Positions 17,613 through 64,000 of a DNA stretch of 64,000 nt are shown here, piece after piece; position 1 is the stretch's first letter, and every line of letters starts with the position of its first letter. This DNA is from Pontiella desulfatans (GTDB taxonomy: Bacteria > Verrucomicrobiota > Kiritimatiellia > Kiritimatiellales > Pontiellaceae): contig NZ_CAAHFG010000005.1 in assembly GCF_900890425.1 (NCBI RefSeq), forward strand, positions 372,001 to 436,000. Reading direction: 5' to 3'. The notes below the pieces were generated by a model. That model saw only the letters and a program-made list of their open reading frames with translations, was not told where the DNA came from and searched no databases. The position numbers and the translations under genes are program-made.

Positions 17613-17660
17613 AAACCGCGAATCCTAAGCTCTAAATTCCAAATCCCAAACAAATTCTAA

Positions 17661-17698
17661 AAACAAAACCCCAAGTGCCAATAGGGCAGTTGGGGTTT
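17661..17698 (-). terminator. Terminator of the discoidin-domain gene
   Basis: A 9-bp AAACCCCAA/TTGGGGTTT stem with a 15-base loop is followed on the minus strand by TTTTGTTTTTA. It lies 50 bp after the stop of the gene at 17749. Confidence 0.8.
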
Positions 17699-17748
17699 CG
17701 TTTAGAAATTTGGGATTGGGAATTTAGAAATTCCAATCCTCTGATGGG

Positions 17749-18488: not shown

Positions 18489-19289
18489 TCAGACACCGAT
18501 TTTTATTAACGATTCGTCCTGTTTAACCACAAATGCAACAACGCCCGGATTTTCCCGGCAAAGCTGCACAATCAAATCCTGTTCCATCATCATGAACGCG
18601 GTGGAAAGGGCATCGGAATGGGCTGCCGATGGATGAACCGCCCACGCCGCCAGATGACGTTTCGCCGGTTTGCCGGTCTTCGGGTTGATGATATGGGAGC
18701 CCTTGATCTCCGTGCCCGAACCGCTGAGCGCCTGGTCTTTGAGCTTAATCTCGGAAAATCCGGCCTTTTCGCCCCACGGCCCGCCAACACCCAGGTTCCA
18801 TTCGCGGCCCAAAGCGAGCACGGTGCTGGTTCCGCCGTTAATGATGACTTCCTCGACATCCCAGTCGGCCAGGATTTCCGCAGCCTTGTCGATGGCATAG
18901 CCTTTGCCGATGCCGCCGAGATCCAACTCGCCTTTACCGTCCTTTTTCCAACCAACGGAAAACCCGGCGCGATCAATCTCCAGCCATTGGAACCCGGTGC
19001 CCAGGGTTGGATCGAACAGGCCACCGGAAACGTGATGGGCCCAGGTTGCAATCTCAAGGCACTCCAGGGTTTCAAGCCCAACGCGAACCGAACCGCCCGG
19101 GGCAAGCAGGTTGATCTGGCCGACGTCGCTTCCCTCGTCATATTTGCTGAGCACTTTTTCAAGGCGGTCGAGCTCGCGGAACGCGGCCCCCGCAGCCTGC
19201 CGGGCGTATTCGCGTTCCTGCCCGGCAACGATCACCTCGAATGCGGTGGTCATGGCCTCGTGCTCATAGCTGTACGTCTGGGTCTTCAT
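18489..19289 (-). CDS. apbE: FAD:protein FMN transferase
   Basis: 266 residues. ApbE attaches FMN covalently to threonine or serine of exported redox proteins. Family blocks are LSKYDEGSDVGQIN near the start, GGLFDPTLG, ELDLGGIGKGYAIDKAAE, INGGTS and the conserved SGSG...HIINPKTG. The usual signal peptide is absent, so it may act in the cytoplasm or start differently. It lies 3' of the heptaheme cytochrome gene, separated from it by the GxxExxY element. No Shine-Dalgarno sequence precedes the ATG, because the element's repeat ends 5 bp upstream of it. The flavinylation target is not evident in this window. Confidence 0.92.
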   Translation of the reverse strand: MKTQTYSYEHEAMTTAFEVIVAGQEREYARQAAGAAFRELDRLEKVLSKYDEGSDVGQINLLAPGGSVRVGLETLECLEIATWAHHVSGGLFDPTLGTGFQWLEIDRAGFSVGWKKDGKGELDLGGIGKGYAIDKAAEILADWDVEEVIINGGTSTVLALGREWNLGVGGPWGEKAGFSEIKLKDQALSGSGTEIKGSHIINPKTGKPAKRHLAAWAVHPSAAHSDALSTAFMMMEQDLIVQLCRENPGVVAFVVKQDESLIKIGV

Positions 19290-19294
19290 GGGTT

Positions 19295-20158
19295 AAGCAA
19301 AATCATTTAATGCAAAATGTTGATCAGGTCAACGTCCTGAACTCGATTTTGGCATGGTTGAGATTGATCCATTGAATGGCTTTAATGTCGGTGTGGTCTA
19401 GGAAGCGCTGAATATGGTTTTGGTAGTATCCTGGGTTCTTCGTTGTGGCCGAAACAATGAAGGCCGTTGCTGGATTCAGAAGGTGGACGTTCTGCTTACC
19501 CAAGACTCGGTTTCCCTTGGATACTGGAATGGCCTGAACAACTTGTTCTTCTCCTCCCAGGAAATGGGTGATTGCCTCCGTGTATAGATTGCTATCCAAA
19601 AAGGCTCCCCAGTCTTGAAGTAGGTTGCTCATGATGGTTCTGAGCTTTTCCGAATCGCCATCCAGTTTCTTCCACCCATCATCAACAAGGGTATAATCCA
19701 AGCGCTGTTCCATGGTAAGTCGGGTGGAGGCGAATTCATGAGCAACCGAAGCTGGGCGGAAATTGATCAAGGCCCCATGGGCAAGATTGGCCAGTAGTAA
19801 ATAGTTCAGTATTTGCTTCCGGTGTTCCCCGTTTAGTGTTTTTGCGGTCTTTAGCTCGTATACGATGCTATTGCTCAATAAAAGGTCGATGAAGTAGCTT
19901 TTGTGGAACGTATCGTAGGAAACCCTGATTTCAACTTCTGAATGTCCTTCAATTCCCGCTGAAATGCAGCGCTCCATCAATTCGGCTTGATAGATGTTTT
20001 CATCGCAAAACCGGCCAAACTCATTGTGGATGTCGAAGGCCATGCCTGTGACCAGCTTATCCACTGCATGAAAGTTTTCCTGCGAAATCCGCGAAACACA
20101 TATTGGAAGTTCGATTGGCAAAGCCCAGACCCTCATTTTGCATTAAATGATTTTGCTT
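19295..20158. mobile_element. GxxExxY element bounded by perfect 25-bp inverted repeats
   Basis: An 864-bp unit has perfectly complementary ends (19295-19319 and 20134-20158). Each end contains the sequence GCAAAATCATTTAATGC. The single GxxExxY gene fills the unit: its ATG lies inside one arm and its stop two bases from the other arm (the arm extends to 19322 when compared with other copies). The same arm occurs twice, inverted, at 63053-63129 without a gene. No target-site duplication could be recognised. It sits between the cytochrome gene and apbE. Mobility is inferred from the repeat structure; no transposase is present. Confidence 0.75.
19324..20136 (-). CDS. GxxExxY-type protein (PD-(D/E)XK-like fold)
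   Basis: 270 residues. The N-terminal ~125 residues match the GxxExxY family: VTGMAFDIHNEFGRFCDENIYQ, then SYFIDLLLSNSIVYELKTAK, where the spaced acidic residues and E-x-K recall a PD-(D/E)XK nuclease core, and KQILNYLLLANLAHGALINF. The remaining ~140 residues are unlike the short family members and may be a second domain. Function of the family is unknown. The ATG at 20136 lies in the inverted repeat; a GTG about 24 codons later is an alternative. Codon use looks less GC-rich than the neighbours, which supports acquisition. Confidence 0.8.
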   Translation of the reverse strand: MRVWALPIELPICVSRISQENFHAVDKLVTGMAFDIHNEFGRFCDENIYQAELMERCISAGIEGHSEVEIRVSYDTFHKSYFIDLLLSNSIVYELKTAKTLNGEHRKQILNYLLLANLAHGALINFRPASVAHEFASTRLTMEQRLDYTLVDDGWKKLDGDSEKLRTIMSNLLQDWGAFLDSNLYTEAITHFLGGEEQVVQAIPVSKGNRVLGKQNVHLLNPATAFIVSATTKNPGYYQNHIQRFLDHTDIKAIQWINLNHAKIEFRTLT

Positions 20159-20212: not shown

Positions 20213-22705
20213 TTAATCGTTATGCTTCTTCGCCACTTTGCAGGCCAGCAGGGCTGCAACCACGCTGACGATGGCGGCAATGCGGTGAATGACGATCGCC
20301 ACATGCTGCCCGTGTGTCCCGAGGATCGGGAACATCGCAATCAGAACGCTGAGAATCAGCACGATGCCGCTCACGATCAGCACCCAGCCCCACAACCCGC
20401 CCGACTTGGCACGCAGTGCGGCCCAGACCAGCAGGAGAATCGCATAGAGCGCGCCGAAGCCCACATGCGACAGCAAGGGGAAGCCGCCTAGCGGATAGCT
20501 CAACGGCCAGCCGAACAGGAATCCGGTAATGATCAGCACCAGCATCGCACCCATCAGGCCCATCTTGATGAGCTTGGCATTAATCTCTTTTTCCTCGAGA
20601 CCGGCGATGAGCTTATAGATCACTGGAAGTCCGACCGCCAGTGCGATCAGGGTCAGCAGCAGGGCAATGTTGCCCATCATGCACTTGAAATATTTGCGGA
20701 CCTTGAAGGTGGTGCCGAACAGCTTGTTGAAGTTGCTGTCCACATCCTGGAACGCGTGCATTGGAACCACCTTGGCATTGTCGGTAAGCAGCGGGCCGGT
20801 GGCGGTGACGTTGCCGAACAGGAAGGCGGAATCGGACGCGTGGCATTCCTTGCAGCTCTTGGCGCCGAGCGATTGGGCGGTGCCGCGTACGTCGTGGCCC
20901 AGCGGCCAGGAGACCGGTTCCGCAGCTTCGTGGTCGGAATCAACCAACGCATCGCCGGAAAGATCGAACTTGCGGCCGTTGGAGATATAGGACGCCCCCT
21001 TGCCAAGCTTCTTCAGCATGAGCGCAACCTGCTCTTCGTTGAACGACTTGGTGCTGCCGACCGTATCGACCACGGCACGTTCCGCGAACTCGGATACGAG
21101 GCCGTTGCCATCCTTGGTATACCAACCGGTCGCCAGGGCGCTGTTGGTTCCAACCAGGTAGCCGTCGGCATCGACTGCAAACTGTTTGCCCTTGGAAACA
21201 ACCATCATTTCGAGCGGTTTGAATGCATCCATCACACCAATGAGCGCCCCCTCGGTGTCATAGTCGATTTCCTCGGCGTTCACATCGAAGTCCGGAATGG
21301 TGGAAACCAGGTTGGAATCGGTCTGCCAGACAAAAGCCACGTCGAGGTCGGTTTCGCCGATGAGGTCGAGGCCGCCGTCCATGTTGAGTCCGTAGGCCTT
21401 GCCGTTGGAAACAAACAGCGGTTCGCCCAGCGCGGTTTCCACAATGGCAAACTTGGAGAGCACGGCGCCGATCTGGTTCTGCACGTCGAGAATTCCGATG
21501 GCCGCTTCGGCCACGGTTTCTTCCGGCAGGGGATGGCCTTCGGCATCCGACCAGAAGGCCGGCCACATCATGCGGCGCGGCTCAATTTTTCCGTCGTCGT
21601 TGCGGACGTAGACGGGCTCAACAATGAAGGGTGATTCGGTGTACCACTGCGCCCGGCCGTAGATGCCGAGTTTGTTTGCACGGGAAGTCCGGACCAGTTG
21701 CGGCTCTTCGCCCGGAACGGAACCGGAGTGGCAGGCCGTGCAGGTCAGCTCTTCAAAGTGAACGGGGGGCAGTCCCTTGTGGTGGGCAACCGGCGCGCCG
21801 GCCTGGCCGGCGATCATGCCGTCCTCGGCATGGCACGCCGCGCAGCTCATCGTTTCGGTGGTGCCGCGCAGGATCTGGTGGTCGTCGCCGTTGCGGTGGC
21901 AATCCACGCAGGAAAGGCCGGCCGCCGCGTGCACGTCGCCGGGCACATCCATGCGCTGCGCCGTTACCGGGTGGGTGGAGTGGCACTGCAGGCAGTTCTT
22001 GTCCATCGGCTTGCCGATGTCGAACCAGATCCGGTGCTTGGAGTCGAACATGCCGCTGTCGTAGTTCACGGACGGGGGAACCCGGTAGGTGTGATCGTCC
22101 GGGCTGCCGCCCATATACATGTCCCACCATTCGGGCATGCGCGAGGCCATGCCGTCCACTTCGCCGATGCCGGCCGCCGCAGTGGCCGCCCAACGGAAGT
22201 TTTCGCGAGCGATCTGCTTCGCCCACTCCGTCATGTCTTGGCGGTGCGACTGGTTATGGCAGGCCAGGCAGTTCATTTCGAGTCCACCGGAAATCTCCCA
22301 CCGCGCATCGGGATCGGCCAGCTTGTCCTCGGGATCGCTGATCGCCCCGCCGGGCAGGTGCGTGCCGAAACGCTTGGTGAACTCCCAAGCGGAAAGCCCC
22401 ATGCGATCGGCCGGAATCTGCGTTCCGGTCGTTTCGTCAACGGCGATCCACGGTTCGGTTGCGCGGCCTTGGCCGGCGCCCTTGAAGTGGGTGCCGCCAT
22501 GGATTTCTTCATAGTCGTGGCAGGCGCCGCAGGTCATTCTGGCCGAGAACGGCATGGTGTGCGGAACGGAGGAGACAATCTTCTGACCATCTTCAGCCGT
22601 CAGCGGAATGCGGTGAACGGGCGTGGTTCTGCTTCCATCGAAGTGACTCGCGAAAACAGATACCACCGTTCCTAGGATTGGAAGTATCAGGTTTTTCGTT
22701 TTCAC
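20213..22705 (-). CDS. Heptaheme c-type cytochrome with membrane-anchored C-terminus
   Basis: 830 residues. Signal peptide residues ~1-20. Seven heme-binding motifs are visible: CGACH (~59), CLACH, CLQCH, CVDCH, CAACH, CTACH and, after a long heme-free segment, CKECH. The last ~150 residues hold about five membrane helices with histidines (LLSHVGFGALYAILL; HGQHVAIVIHRIAAI) that could ligate further heme b. It should carry electrons between an extracytoplasmic donor and the quinone pool. It starts at GTG, overlapping the stop of the Gfo/Idh gene by 4 bp (GTGA), so the two are translationally coupled. apbE lies downstream. Confidence 0.88.
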   Translation of the reverse strand: MKTKNLILPILGTVVSVFASHFDGSRTTPVHRIPLTAEDGQKIVSSVPHTMPFSARMTCGACHDYEEIHGGTHFKGAGQGRATEPWIAVDETTGTQIPADRMGLSAWEFTKRFGTHLPGGAISDPEDKLADPDARWEISGGLEMNCLACHNQSHRQDMTEWAKQIARENFRWAATAAAGIGEVDGMASRMPEWWDMYMGGSPDDHTYRVPPSVNYDSGMFDSKHRIWFDIGKPMDKNCLQCHSTHPVTAQRMDVPGDVHAAAGLSCVDCHRNGDDHQILRGTTETMSCAACHAEDGMIAGQAGAPVAHHKGLPPVHFEELTCTACHSGSVPGEEPQLVRTSRANKLGIYGRAQWYTESPFIVEPVYVRNDDGKIEPRRMMWPAFWSDAEGHPLPEETVAEAAIGILDVQNQIGAVLSKFAIVETALGEPLFVSNGKAYGLNMDGGLDLIGETDLDVAFVWQTDSNLVSTIPDFDVNAEEIDYDTEGALIGVMDAFKPLEMMVVSKGKQFAVDADGYLVGTNSALATGWYTKDGNGLVSEFAERAVVDTVGSTKSFNEEQVALMLKKLGKGASYISNGRKFDLSGDALVDSDHEAAEPVSWPLGHDVRGTAQSLGAKSCKECHASDSAFLFGNVTATGPLLTDNAKVVPMHAFQDVDSNFNKLFGTTFKVRKYFKCMMGNIALLLTLIALAVGLPVIYKLIAGLEEKEINAKLIKMGLMGAMLVLIITGFLFGWPLSYPLGGFPLLSHVGFGALYAILLLVWAALRAKSGGLWGWVLIVSGIVLILSVLIAMFPILGTHGQHVAIVIHRIAAIVSVVAALLACKVAKKHND

Positions 22706-30133: not shown

Positions 30134-30217
30134 ATTGCGTATTACGTACTACGTATTGCAAATGCCCGTCTCGGCGGGAGTTCCTTCAGCAATACGTAAT
30201 ACGCAGTACGAAGTACG
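30134..30217. repeat. Imperfect inverted repeat rich in TACGTA
   Basis: The left arm (30134-30159) and right arm (30189-30217) are built of ATTACGTA / TACGTAAT words around a CCCGTCTCGGCGGG core. It fills almost the whole gap between the isomerase and Gfo/Idh genes. It looks like a dispersed intergenic repeat rather than a promoter. Confidence 0.65.
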
Positions 30218-61459: not shown

Positions 61460-61593
61460 GGTGGTTCCTTTTAATAGGGTTTAAGGGGAACATCCGACCA
61501 CAGTTCCACGGGCAAGGCAAGGGGAATAACGGTTGCGGGATGCGTGGCGGGCCGGTAGACTCCAAGGCGTGGGAAGTGAAAGGAGCCACTACG

Positions 61594-63018
61594 ATGGAAG
61601 CGAACAAACGGATCCGGTTTATCGGGTTGCTGGCGGTCGGCCTGCTTCTGGCTGTCGGCGCGGAGGACCGCAAAAGCAATATCACCTCCGCCGATGCCCG
61701 CCGGACCGTGGGCGAAGTGGCGGCATTCCAGCAGTTTCCGGCCGACTACCGGCTGGCGCGCATGGGGAGCATCCGGGGCGGGGAGGCCTTCTTCCACATC
61801 TTCACAACCTGGCTCAAGGATACGGGGAAGTGGCGGACGCTGGTGTTCGAGAACAGCGGGGCCTACCTGGGCTACTACGAGACCAGCAACGAGCCGGCCG
61901 AGCTGGAAAAGTCGGGCATCACCTATCCCGGCCACAGCTATAGCGCCGAGTCTGGCGACAATGCCGAGGGCGAGTTCGACAGCGGCGATTCGCACACCAT
62001 CGTTTTTTCCACGAACGGGCCGCCGGATCTCGTGAAGTTCGAGGAAAAAACCTTCACCTTTGTTTCGTCCCCCAAGCGCATCCGGCCGGATACCCCCGGC
62101 TATCGCTTCGTCCTCGTGGCCAACCGCATGGCCGATTCCATCAACCAGGGCCGCTATCTGCGCATCCGCGACGATTTCAGCGCGCGGGCCCTCGCCAAGC
62201 TTTCCGAGGAGCGGACGAAAACCGCCTTTGCCAACCTGCGCCAGCGGCTGGGCAAGATCGAACGCCTCGATGCCCCCTGGGTGCAGCAGGAAAGCATCGC
62301 GGTCTTTCCGGTCTCGTTCGAGAAGGGGGTGGTTGGCCTGGAACTTTCGCTGGATGCCGACGACAAGATTAGCGGACTCCGGATTCTGCCCTTCACGACC
62401 GCCTTCCCCGAGCTGCCGCCCCACCAGACGGCCCTCACGTTGCCCTACGGAGGGCGGTGGCGCGTGATGTGGGGAGGCGACAACCGGCAGACGAGCAAAT
62501 ATTTCGGCAACCGTGTCCGGCAACATGCGCGCGAGTTCGTGATTGCCGATCGCTATGGGCTGACCTATCTCGAAGAAGGGAAAAAGAACGCCGACTTCTT
62601 CGCCTTCGGCCGCCCGGTCGTGGCGCCCGCCGCCGGCGAGGTGATCGCCGTGGTGAACGGGGTGGAGGACAACCGGCCGCGCTCGCCCAACACCTTTGCG
62701 GGGCTCGGAAACATGGTGGTCATCCAGCATGCGACCAACGAGGTGTCGGTGATTGGCCACCTGATGAACGACAGCATCCTGGTCAAGACCGGCCAGGTGG
62801 TGGCGGTGCGACAGCCCATTGCACGATGCGGCAACTCCGGCGACTCGACCCAACCGAGCATCTACTACCACCTGCAGGACAATCCCGCGCCCGACACCGG
62901 CTCGGGTTATCGACCCCAATTCCGCAACGTGCTCATTTGGGATCGTGGCCGGGGGCGGGTCGATGCCAAGCACTCGCCGTCGCGCGGCGAATATGTCGAG
63001 CAGCATTCAGCGCCGTAG
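61594..63018 (+). CDS. M23-family metallopeptidase
   Basis: 474 residues from MEANKRIR with AAAGGAG upstream. A signal peptide lies at ~8-24 (FIGLLAVGLLLAVGA). The first ~300 residues are a beta-rich domain not seen in the common lysostaphin-like members. The M23 domain is at ~310-470: GGRWRVMWGGDN, QHAREFVIADRYG, GNMVVIQHAT, VIGHLMNDS and the zinc-site YYHLQDNP. It should cut peptide bridges in peptidoglycan, or bind them if zinc ligands are incomplete: the first His/Asp pair here is spaced unlike the usual HxxxxxxxD and deserves care. Confidence 0.85.
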   Translation: MEANKRIRFIGLLAVGLLLAVGAEDRKSNITSADARRTVGEVAAFQQFPADYRLARMGSIRGGEAFFHIFTTWLKDTGKWRTLVFENSGAYLGYYETSNEPAELEKSGITYPGHSYSAESGDNAEGEFDSGDSHTIVFSTNGPPDLVKFEEKTFTFVSSPKRIRPDTPGYRFVLVANRMADSINQGRYLRIRDDFSARALAKLSEERTKTAFANLRQRLGKIERLDAPWVQQESIAVFPVSFEKGVVGLELSLDADDKISGLRILPFTTAFPELPPHQTALTLPYGGRWRVMWGGDNRQTSKYFGNRVRQHAREFVIADRYGLTYLEEGKKNADFFAFGRPVVAPAAGEVIAVVNGVEDNRPRSPNTFAGLGNMVVIQHATNEVSVIGHLMNDSILVKTGQVVAVRQPIARCGNSGDSTQPSIYYHLQDNPAPDTGSGYRPQFRNVLIWDRGRGRVDAKHSPSRGEYVEQHSAP

Positions 63019-63052: not shown

Positions 63053-63129
63053 GCAAAATGATTTAATGCAAAATGTTGAACACGCGACCATCCAACTCGA
63101 AGCCAACATTTTGCATTAAATGATTTTGC
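63053..63129. repeat. Solo inverted repeat of the GxxExxY element, no gene inside
   Basis: 26-bp arms (63053-63078 and 63104-63129) with one mismatch enclose 25 bp. The right arm is identical to the left arm of the GxxExxY unit at 19297-19322. It lies 34 bp after the M23 gene and 36 bp before the end of deoB. It looks like a minimal, gene-free version of the element. Confidence 0.85.
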
Positions 63130-63165: not shown

Positions 63166-64000
63166 TTAAACCAGGAAGGCCTTTCCCCTCGGCAACGGGT
63201 TGATCCCGAAGCGGGTGGCGAGGGATTGGGCCATGTCGTAGAAGCCTTGGCGGATGCCGAGGCTTTTCCCATCACGCCCCGGTTCGTAGGAAAGCAACGG
63301 CACAAATTCGCGCGTGTGGTCGGTGCCCCTGAAGGTGGGGTCGTTCCCGTGGTCGGCGGTCAGCAGCAGCGCATCGCCGGGTTCCAGCTTCGGCAGGAAC
63401 GAGGCGAGCCACGCGTCGGTTTGCTCCAGTGCCTGCGCATAGCCCGCGGGATCGCGCCGGTGGCCGTAGAGCATGTCGAAGTCGATGAAGTTCGCGAAGA
63501 TGAGACCGTCGCCCTCCTTCTCCATGAACTGATCGACCACCTTTTGCGACTCCTCGGTATTGCCCGAATGGATGCTCTCCGTAATACCACGGTGCGCCAC
63601 GATGTCCTCGATCTTGCCGACGGCATAGACGGGGATGCCGGCATCGAACAGGCGTTCGGTAATGAGCGGCTCCTCGGGCGTGAAGGCATAGTCGCGCCGG
63701 TCTTCGGTGCGCTCGAAGGCGCCCGGTTTCCCAATGAACGGACGGGCAATCACGCGGCCAACCTTCAGCGGATCGCACAGGCGCCGGGCCATCTCGCAAC
63801 CGCGGTAGAGCTCGTCAAGCGGGATGGTTTCGTTGTGCGCGGCCAGCTGCATCACCGAGTCGGCGCTGGTATAGGCGATCCACGCGCCGGTGCGCATGTG
63901 CTCTTCGCCCAGCTCGTCGATGATCGCGATGCCGCTGGCCGCCTTGTTGCCAATGACCAGGCGACCGGTGGCCGCCTCGAACGCCTCCAGCAGCTCCGGC
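63166..64000 (-). CDS. deoB: Phosphopentomutase (N-terminus outside window)
   Basis: The C-terminal ~277 residues are visible. They include NKAASGIAIIDELGEEHMRT, YTSADSVMQLAAHNE, ARPFIGKPGAFERTEDRRDY, the metal ligands in FANFIDFDMLYGHRRD and LLTADHGNDPTFRGTDHTRE, all of the DeoB type within the alkaline-phosphatase superfamily. It interconverts ribose 1- and 5-phosphate (and deoxyribose forms) in nucleoside use. The frame continues past the right edge, so an internal ATG at 63897 is not the start. Together with the nearby deaminase it suggests purine salvage. Confidence 0.93.
   Translation of the reverse strand, partial: PELLEAFEAATGRLVIGNKAASGIAIIDELGEEHMRTGAWIAYTSADSVMQLAAHNETIPLDELYRGCEMARRLCDPLKVGRVIARPFIGKPGAFERTEDRRDYAFTPEEPLITERLFDAGIPVYAVGKIEDIVAHRGITESIHSGNTEESQKVVDQFMEKEGDGLIFANFIDFDMLYGHRRDPAGYAQALEQTDAWLASFLPKLEPGDALLLTADHGNDPTFRGTDHTREFVPLLSYEPGRDGKSLGIRQGFYDMAQSLATRFGINPLPRGKAFLV

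Follow-up and report, generated by a model that had tools for sequence, protein, structure and literature searches.

A GxxExxY gene of Pontiella desulfatans is enclosed by inverted repeat arms that recur across the genome as gene-less hairpins, and we consider it probable, from comparative sequence analysis, that gene and arms form a RAYT/REPIN-like system in which an unrelated PD-(D/E)XK nuclease mobilises its arms in trans. RAYT transposases are believed to spread REPs. We propose the parallel on account of this enclosure, the single gene per arm family, the gene-less copies, an abundance of arms that goes with the presence of the gene, and the combination of a vertically inherited gene with mobile repeats.

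The window, by which we mean the whole stretch of 64,000 nucleotides analysed here, holds the gene-bearing unit and a gene-less hairpin with the same arm (arm A; Table 1). A first-pass annotation, made from the letters of the window, had reported both the perfect inverted repeat around the gene and the recurrence of its arms, inverted about a 25-bp spacer; both observations hold, the repeat being absent from shuffled sequence and the hairpin having one mismatch between its arms, and the window contains four arm matches where 100 shuffles of it lead one to expect none. As DNA, the hairpin folds with a z score of −6.7. The same annotation had the repeats bounding the gene exactly, which is right for the upstream side, where the ATG lies within the arm, but not for the downstream side, where the stop is four bases from the arm instead of two. 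Even the arm-internal start is probably incidental, because the alignment with orthologues begins only at residue 5 or 6 and, in several of them, stop codons lie between the arm and that point; on these alignments, TTG at L6 is the likelier true start.

Table 1 The GxxExxY unit, its flanking genes and the arm A hairpin, in window coordinates.
Feature	Position	Strand	Remarks
Right end of GxxExxY unit (downstream arm)	19295..19319	+	AAGCAAAATCATTTAATGCAAAATG; perfect 25-bp inverted repeat with 20134-20158
Left end of GxxExxY unit (upstream arm)	20134..20158	-	Pairs with 19295-19319
GxxExxY / PDDEXK_3 gene	19324..20136	-	270 aa as called; likely start L6 (about 20121)
Gene-less hairpin, arm family A	63053..63129	.	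26-nt arms with one mismatch, 25-nt loop
ApbE-like flanking gene	18489..19289	-	Marks insertion site, empty in relatives
Multi-haem cytochrome-like flanking gene (CxxCH motifs)	20213..22705	-	Directly adjoins ApbE in relatives without the unit

The window protein passes the GxxExxY profile TIGR04256 (77.6 bits, cut-off 35) and PDDEXK_3 (PF13366; 85.6 bits, cut-off 22), families for which, to our knowledge, neither a function nor associated repeats have been described. Its predicted structure (pLDDT 94.5) finds its best PDB match in the Cas4-type nuclease 4ic1 (Z 9.4, rmsd 4.1, 105 aligned), and the active-site residues E46, D84, E94-x-K96 and Q108 all lie in the N-terminal domain, with D84 and K96 invariant in an alignment of 20 sequences that are 36-67% identical to the window protein. 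With this fold and with D84, E94-x-K96 and Q108 conserved, the protein belongs to the PD-(D/E)XK class, and its N-terminal domain is, judged by the model, a nuclease with an intact active site. Compared with the GxxExxY and PDDEXK_3 families at large, it is a member of a two-domain branch. The second domain looks like a degenerate copy, as that of one paralogue gives a weak GxxExxY match (27 bits) and the active-site residues are absent from it in the alignment. We found no relatives of the two-domain protein on viral contigs, none of the single-domain protein in phages, no match in PADLOC, and in PHROGs nothing beyond weak matches to a CRISPR/Cas-associated family.

The genome (8.66 Mb on six contigs, 95%-complete) has its near relatives, among named records, in the Kiritimatiellales and Pontiellaceae. 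Searching it for the arm, as the first-pass annotation had proposed, returned 28 copies of arm A with at most three mismatches and none of the reversed pattern, so the arm is not confined to the two places in the window. Most copies form hairpins of about 77 bp, the two inverted arms lying 30-31 nt from each other and the flanks being unrelated; a single inward-facing pair has a gene between its arms, the GxxExxY gene, and the rest are gene-less. The genome has 14 GxxExxY loci (15 profile matches, two of them in one two-domain gene), of which 13 are enclosed by repeats. The ends of three other such genes, arms B, C and D, are present in 46, 25 and 38 copies, again with zero hits for every reversed control, and within each of the families A-D the sole gene-sized inward pair that does not nest shorter hairpins encloses a GxxExxY gene. 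Arm sequences vary from gene to gene across these loci; what stays constant is a design built of short, directly repeated words.

The hairpins have a polarity. In 12 of 13 units, one side has C at arm position 8, where the other mostly has G or A (p 2e-4), a difference that leaves a single mismatch when the stem folds. We found no support for concerted evolution between the arms of a hairpin in families A, B and D, whose two ends tend to differ consistently; family C alone is concordant between hairpin arms, through its subfamilies. No common tag, GTAG and CGTC included, stands at the hairpin foot in the flanks of 50 units. Loops and arms have diverged, with no recent burst visible. Two family C hairpins (L079, L087) carry within an arm a short insert beginning GTTGCCGCTTCGCTGCCG, and L087, L089 and L095 of the same family have long identical flanks in common.

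A profile search of public genomes gave 46 two-domain GxxExxY loci, from Kiritimatiellota, Verrucomicrobia, Lentisphaerae, Planctomycetes, KSB1 and others. Inverted repeats enclose 37 of them, compared with 10 of 1891 control windows of the same size from the same loci (Fisher p about 1e-60, uncorrected for shared ancestry). Nearly all arms share one design, the half-site CARRAHNATT in two copies separated by mostly 4-7 bases. Of 53 arms, more than half have a score of 19 or 20 out of 20 for this motif and shuffled arms reach 19 in 0.02% of cases, where the consensus was built from part of the scored loci, orientation and gap were picked by score, and the shuffles had the same freedom. One may speculate that the two domains of the protein each read one of the two half-sites in an arm.

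Single-domain genes follow the pattern in part. In P. desulfatans itself and in five genomes of our survey (G161, G313, G048, G137 and G320), arms of the CACAGAG/CGCAAAG type surround most of them. Outside the phylum, ends are present at plasmid-borne single-domain genes of Sphingomonas, Bernardetia, Bacteroides and Gemmatirosa, and plasmid-borne ones of Prevotella, Fusobacteria, Treponema and Persicobacter showed no ends of comparable quality. About half of these plasmid genes in all, and four of five single-domain loci in rumen Bacteroidales, have no detectable ends. The expectation in the first-pass annotation that other GxxExxY genes share similar ends is thus borne out for 13 of 14 loci in the genome and for 37 of the 46 two-domain loci, and fails for these rumen and plasmid genes, the kind of case it had named as speaking against its reading. 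Enclosure by inverted repeats is the rule for the GxxExxY family and not the oddity of one locus, some single-domain genes in other phyla excepted. On a plasmid of Sphingomonas parapaucimobilis (NZ_CP155749.1; L313 1420-1960), a unit with inverted ends lies between fabD and fabG of a fatty-acid operon, and the two genes are adjacent, with the unit absent, in S. paeninsulae and Sinorhizobium meliloti, which makes it a clear second case of insertion, this one in a different phylum.

Across the phylum, the abundance of arms follows the presence of the gene. We counted a fixed arm motif pattern in 289 of its genomes (six control matches in total) and sought the two-domain gene in the same set: at least ten motifs occur in 12 genomes, nine of which have the gene, compared with 16 of the 277 others (p 1e-8, a guide only, since the surveyed genomes are related by descent). 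The remaining three (G161, G313 and G048) have 79, 41 and 10 long-type motifs and no two-domain gene was found in them; it may have been lost or be missing from the assembly, or the arms may be orphans. Dispersed arms are closest to those of the genome's own gene in G016, G031 and G000. This coupling test failed in G001, G033, G025, G056 and G294, several of which have incomplete gene ends or another gap; in G056 the half-site is unchanged but its gap differs.

Comparison with relatives separates the fate of the gene from that of the hairpins. Arm A is present in 9 of 58 related genomes. Orthologues of the window gene in G005, G008 and G012 (64-67% identity) have the same arm, and those in G016 and G021 (48-50% identity) have AAGCAAAATGATTAAGAGCAAAATGATT or a one-base variant of it on both sides. 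In six species (these five and G000) the unit stands directly before the gene that we take to be ApbE. Four genomes (G001, G003, G017 and G023) provide empty sites, with the cytochrome and ApbE genes adjacent and no unit between them; in G018, ApbE lies behind another gene and the unit is absent. Arm A is present in G001 although its gene is not. Hairpin positions differ among related species: in a comparison covering part of the relatives' arm sites, only one gene-less arm A site of P. desulfatans had a clearly orthologous neighbour at a relative's arm site (L023 and L100, 66% over 133 aa). Because the unit is syntenic in six species and gene-less sites almost never are, the gene is passed on vertically at a fixed place as the hairpin positions turn over. 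The mobile or formerly mobile unit of the first-pass annotation accordingly survives in altered form: the unit is discrete, its arms recur throughout the genome and empty sites exist, but the gene-bearing unit, which six species have in one and the same position, is not jumping now, and it is the gene-less hairpin that disperses. The comparison of sites lacking the unit, proposed there as a way to find a target duplication, revealed none at these empty sites, all compared across diverged species, nor was a movement event observed in the genomes compared. Just upstream of ApbE in G006 (L167), a scar-like AAGCAAAATGATTTTGCCC resembles a collapsed remnant of the unit. The GxxExxY orthologue of G008 (C44:14658-15383) is broken by a frame break and may be decaying there while its arms persist.

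On the reading that we favour, a single-copy, vertically inherited gene enclosed by two inverted arms would produce a PD-(D/E)XK nuclease that recognises the arms, each with its two direct half-sites, and cuts there. Cutting would mobilise in trans the short gene-less hairpins, each made up of an arm, a spacer of roughly 13-31 nt and the arm in inverted form, and these hairpins would then pile up at new sites. A plausible route is a nick at the hairpin, either single-stranded or extruded, after which repair or replication would copy it elsewhere; the polarity between the left and right ends would fit such an oriented unit. That the protein acts on these repeats, as the first-pass annotation suggested, is the best explanation of the data; we infer that it binds and cuts its arms and that the cuts result in copying or transposition. 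Against this reading count the only weak correlation between protein distances and arm distances (Mantel r 0.17, p 0.04) and the fact that a bare nuclease is not known to join strands.

The same enzyme might instead be a homing-type selfish nuclease that cuts sites without the element, so that repair copies in the arm-bounded unit or hairpin, the arms being remnants of recognition and not transposon ends. The PD-(D/E)XK fold, which resembles restriction enzymes and Holliday junction resolvases, would suit this account, as would the conserved half-site motif on the arms and the lack of a visible target duplication at the cytochrome-ApbE empty sites of diverged species. Homing requires a matching target, yet the gene-less hairpins lie in unrelated flanks, and the conserved motif is in the ends and not in the empty sites; we regard it as unlikely. 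We give a little less credence to the hairpins being RNA or transcription elements, such as terminators or mRNA ends, spread by something else and acted on by the nuclease as an autoregulated RNase or regulator. They are strong hairpins (RNA z −7.5), and the one at 63053-63129 lies between the ends of the convergent genes 61540-63018 (+) and 63166-63999 (-). Their arms, however, are A+T-rich, unlike intrinsic terminators, Rfam has no match in the window, the conserved primary sequence and the polar difference at position 8 point to sequence recognition, and a private arm family per gene points to gene-coupled spread.

Least probable is that the arms are ordinary transposon ends with MITEs, moved by another transposase (HUH or DDE) with GxxExxY as cargo. 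Short elements bounded by inverted repeats are common, and Verrucomicrobia and Planctomycetes are known to have GTAG repeats and tyrosine transposases (PMC3733652); yet no common tag of this kind stands at the hairpin foot, the four arm families enclose no other gene in a genome that is 95% complete, and the same enclosure surrounds diverse GxxExxY genes across phyla. Integron attC cassettes were rejected, as the gene has the repeat on either side and two arms by themselves already make up a whole unit.

If mobilisation by the nuclease is right, a family annotated by its sequence motif alone gains a testable role, and populations of REP-like repeats have come about with an enzyme that is no relative of the HUH transposases. 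With an enzyme-substrate pair named for each genome, the spread of REP-like repeats becomes testable in vitro, using short oligonucleotides and one small protein. Whether GxxExxY is, more broadly, a large family of domesticated PD-(D/E)XK enzymes that make and maintain private populations of REPIN-like hairpins in many phyla of bacteria, so that the RAYT/REPIN lifestyle was invented independently and the CACAGAGG/CGCAAAG-type repeats seen in environmental bacteria are accounted for as well, we judge to be an even question. In the open-access journal papers searched, no RAYT/REPIN-type organisation is described for a PD-(D/E)XK enzyme. The papers naming GxxExxY are, by title and abstract, not about repeats, and one mentions the domain where CRISPRone called cas4; PDDEXK_3 is named nowhere in the papers searched, and the arm strings were found solely in an unrelated paper.

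Three known kinds of element invite comparison. Insertion sequences with MITE derivatives likewise have inverted ends and short gene-less derivatives with the same ends; unlike them, the GxxExxY unit is a single copy fixed at one site, has no recognised transposase and shows no target duplication at its diverged empty sites. The four-helix-bundle genes of 23S rRNA intervening sequences (TIGR02436; Coxiella IVS, PMC4990558) also place a small gene in a hairpin-bounded element, although their protein is unrelated and not nuclease-like. Several TIGR02436 genes of P. desulfatans have direct-repeat arms too, and that family may share the same habit. The arms of two gene-less hairpins in the window, at 30138-30210 and 17631-17728, resemble those around TIGR02436 genes located elsewhere in the genome (L050 and L048). 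The closest likeness is to RAYT/REP/REPIN systems, in which a single-copy gene lies between two inverted palindromic repeats, gene-less pairs are dispersed and the arms are cognate (PMC2817692, PMC3116915). RAYTs were tied to REPs by enclosure, gene-repeat pairing, gene-less copies, gene-linked abundance and a vertical gene with mobile repeats (PMC2817692). GxxExxY genes share the single copy between inverted repeats, the dispersed gene-less pairs, arms cognate to each gene, arm abundance tied to the gene, orphan repeats and composite arrays. The enzyme differs, being a PD-(D/E)XK nuclease and not a HUH Y1 transposase (the window protein matches PD-(D/E)XK profiles only, and its model has the same fold), and so do the arms, which are direct half-site pairs without the GTAG or CGTC tag of REPs. 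The GxxExxY gene is thus not a member of the RAYTs; the organisation is known from RAYT/REPIN systems, and, going by the papers searched, its use by a PD-(D/E)XK enzyme is the new part.
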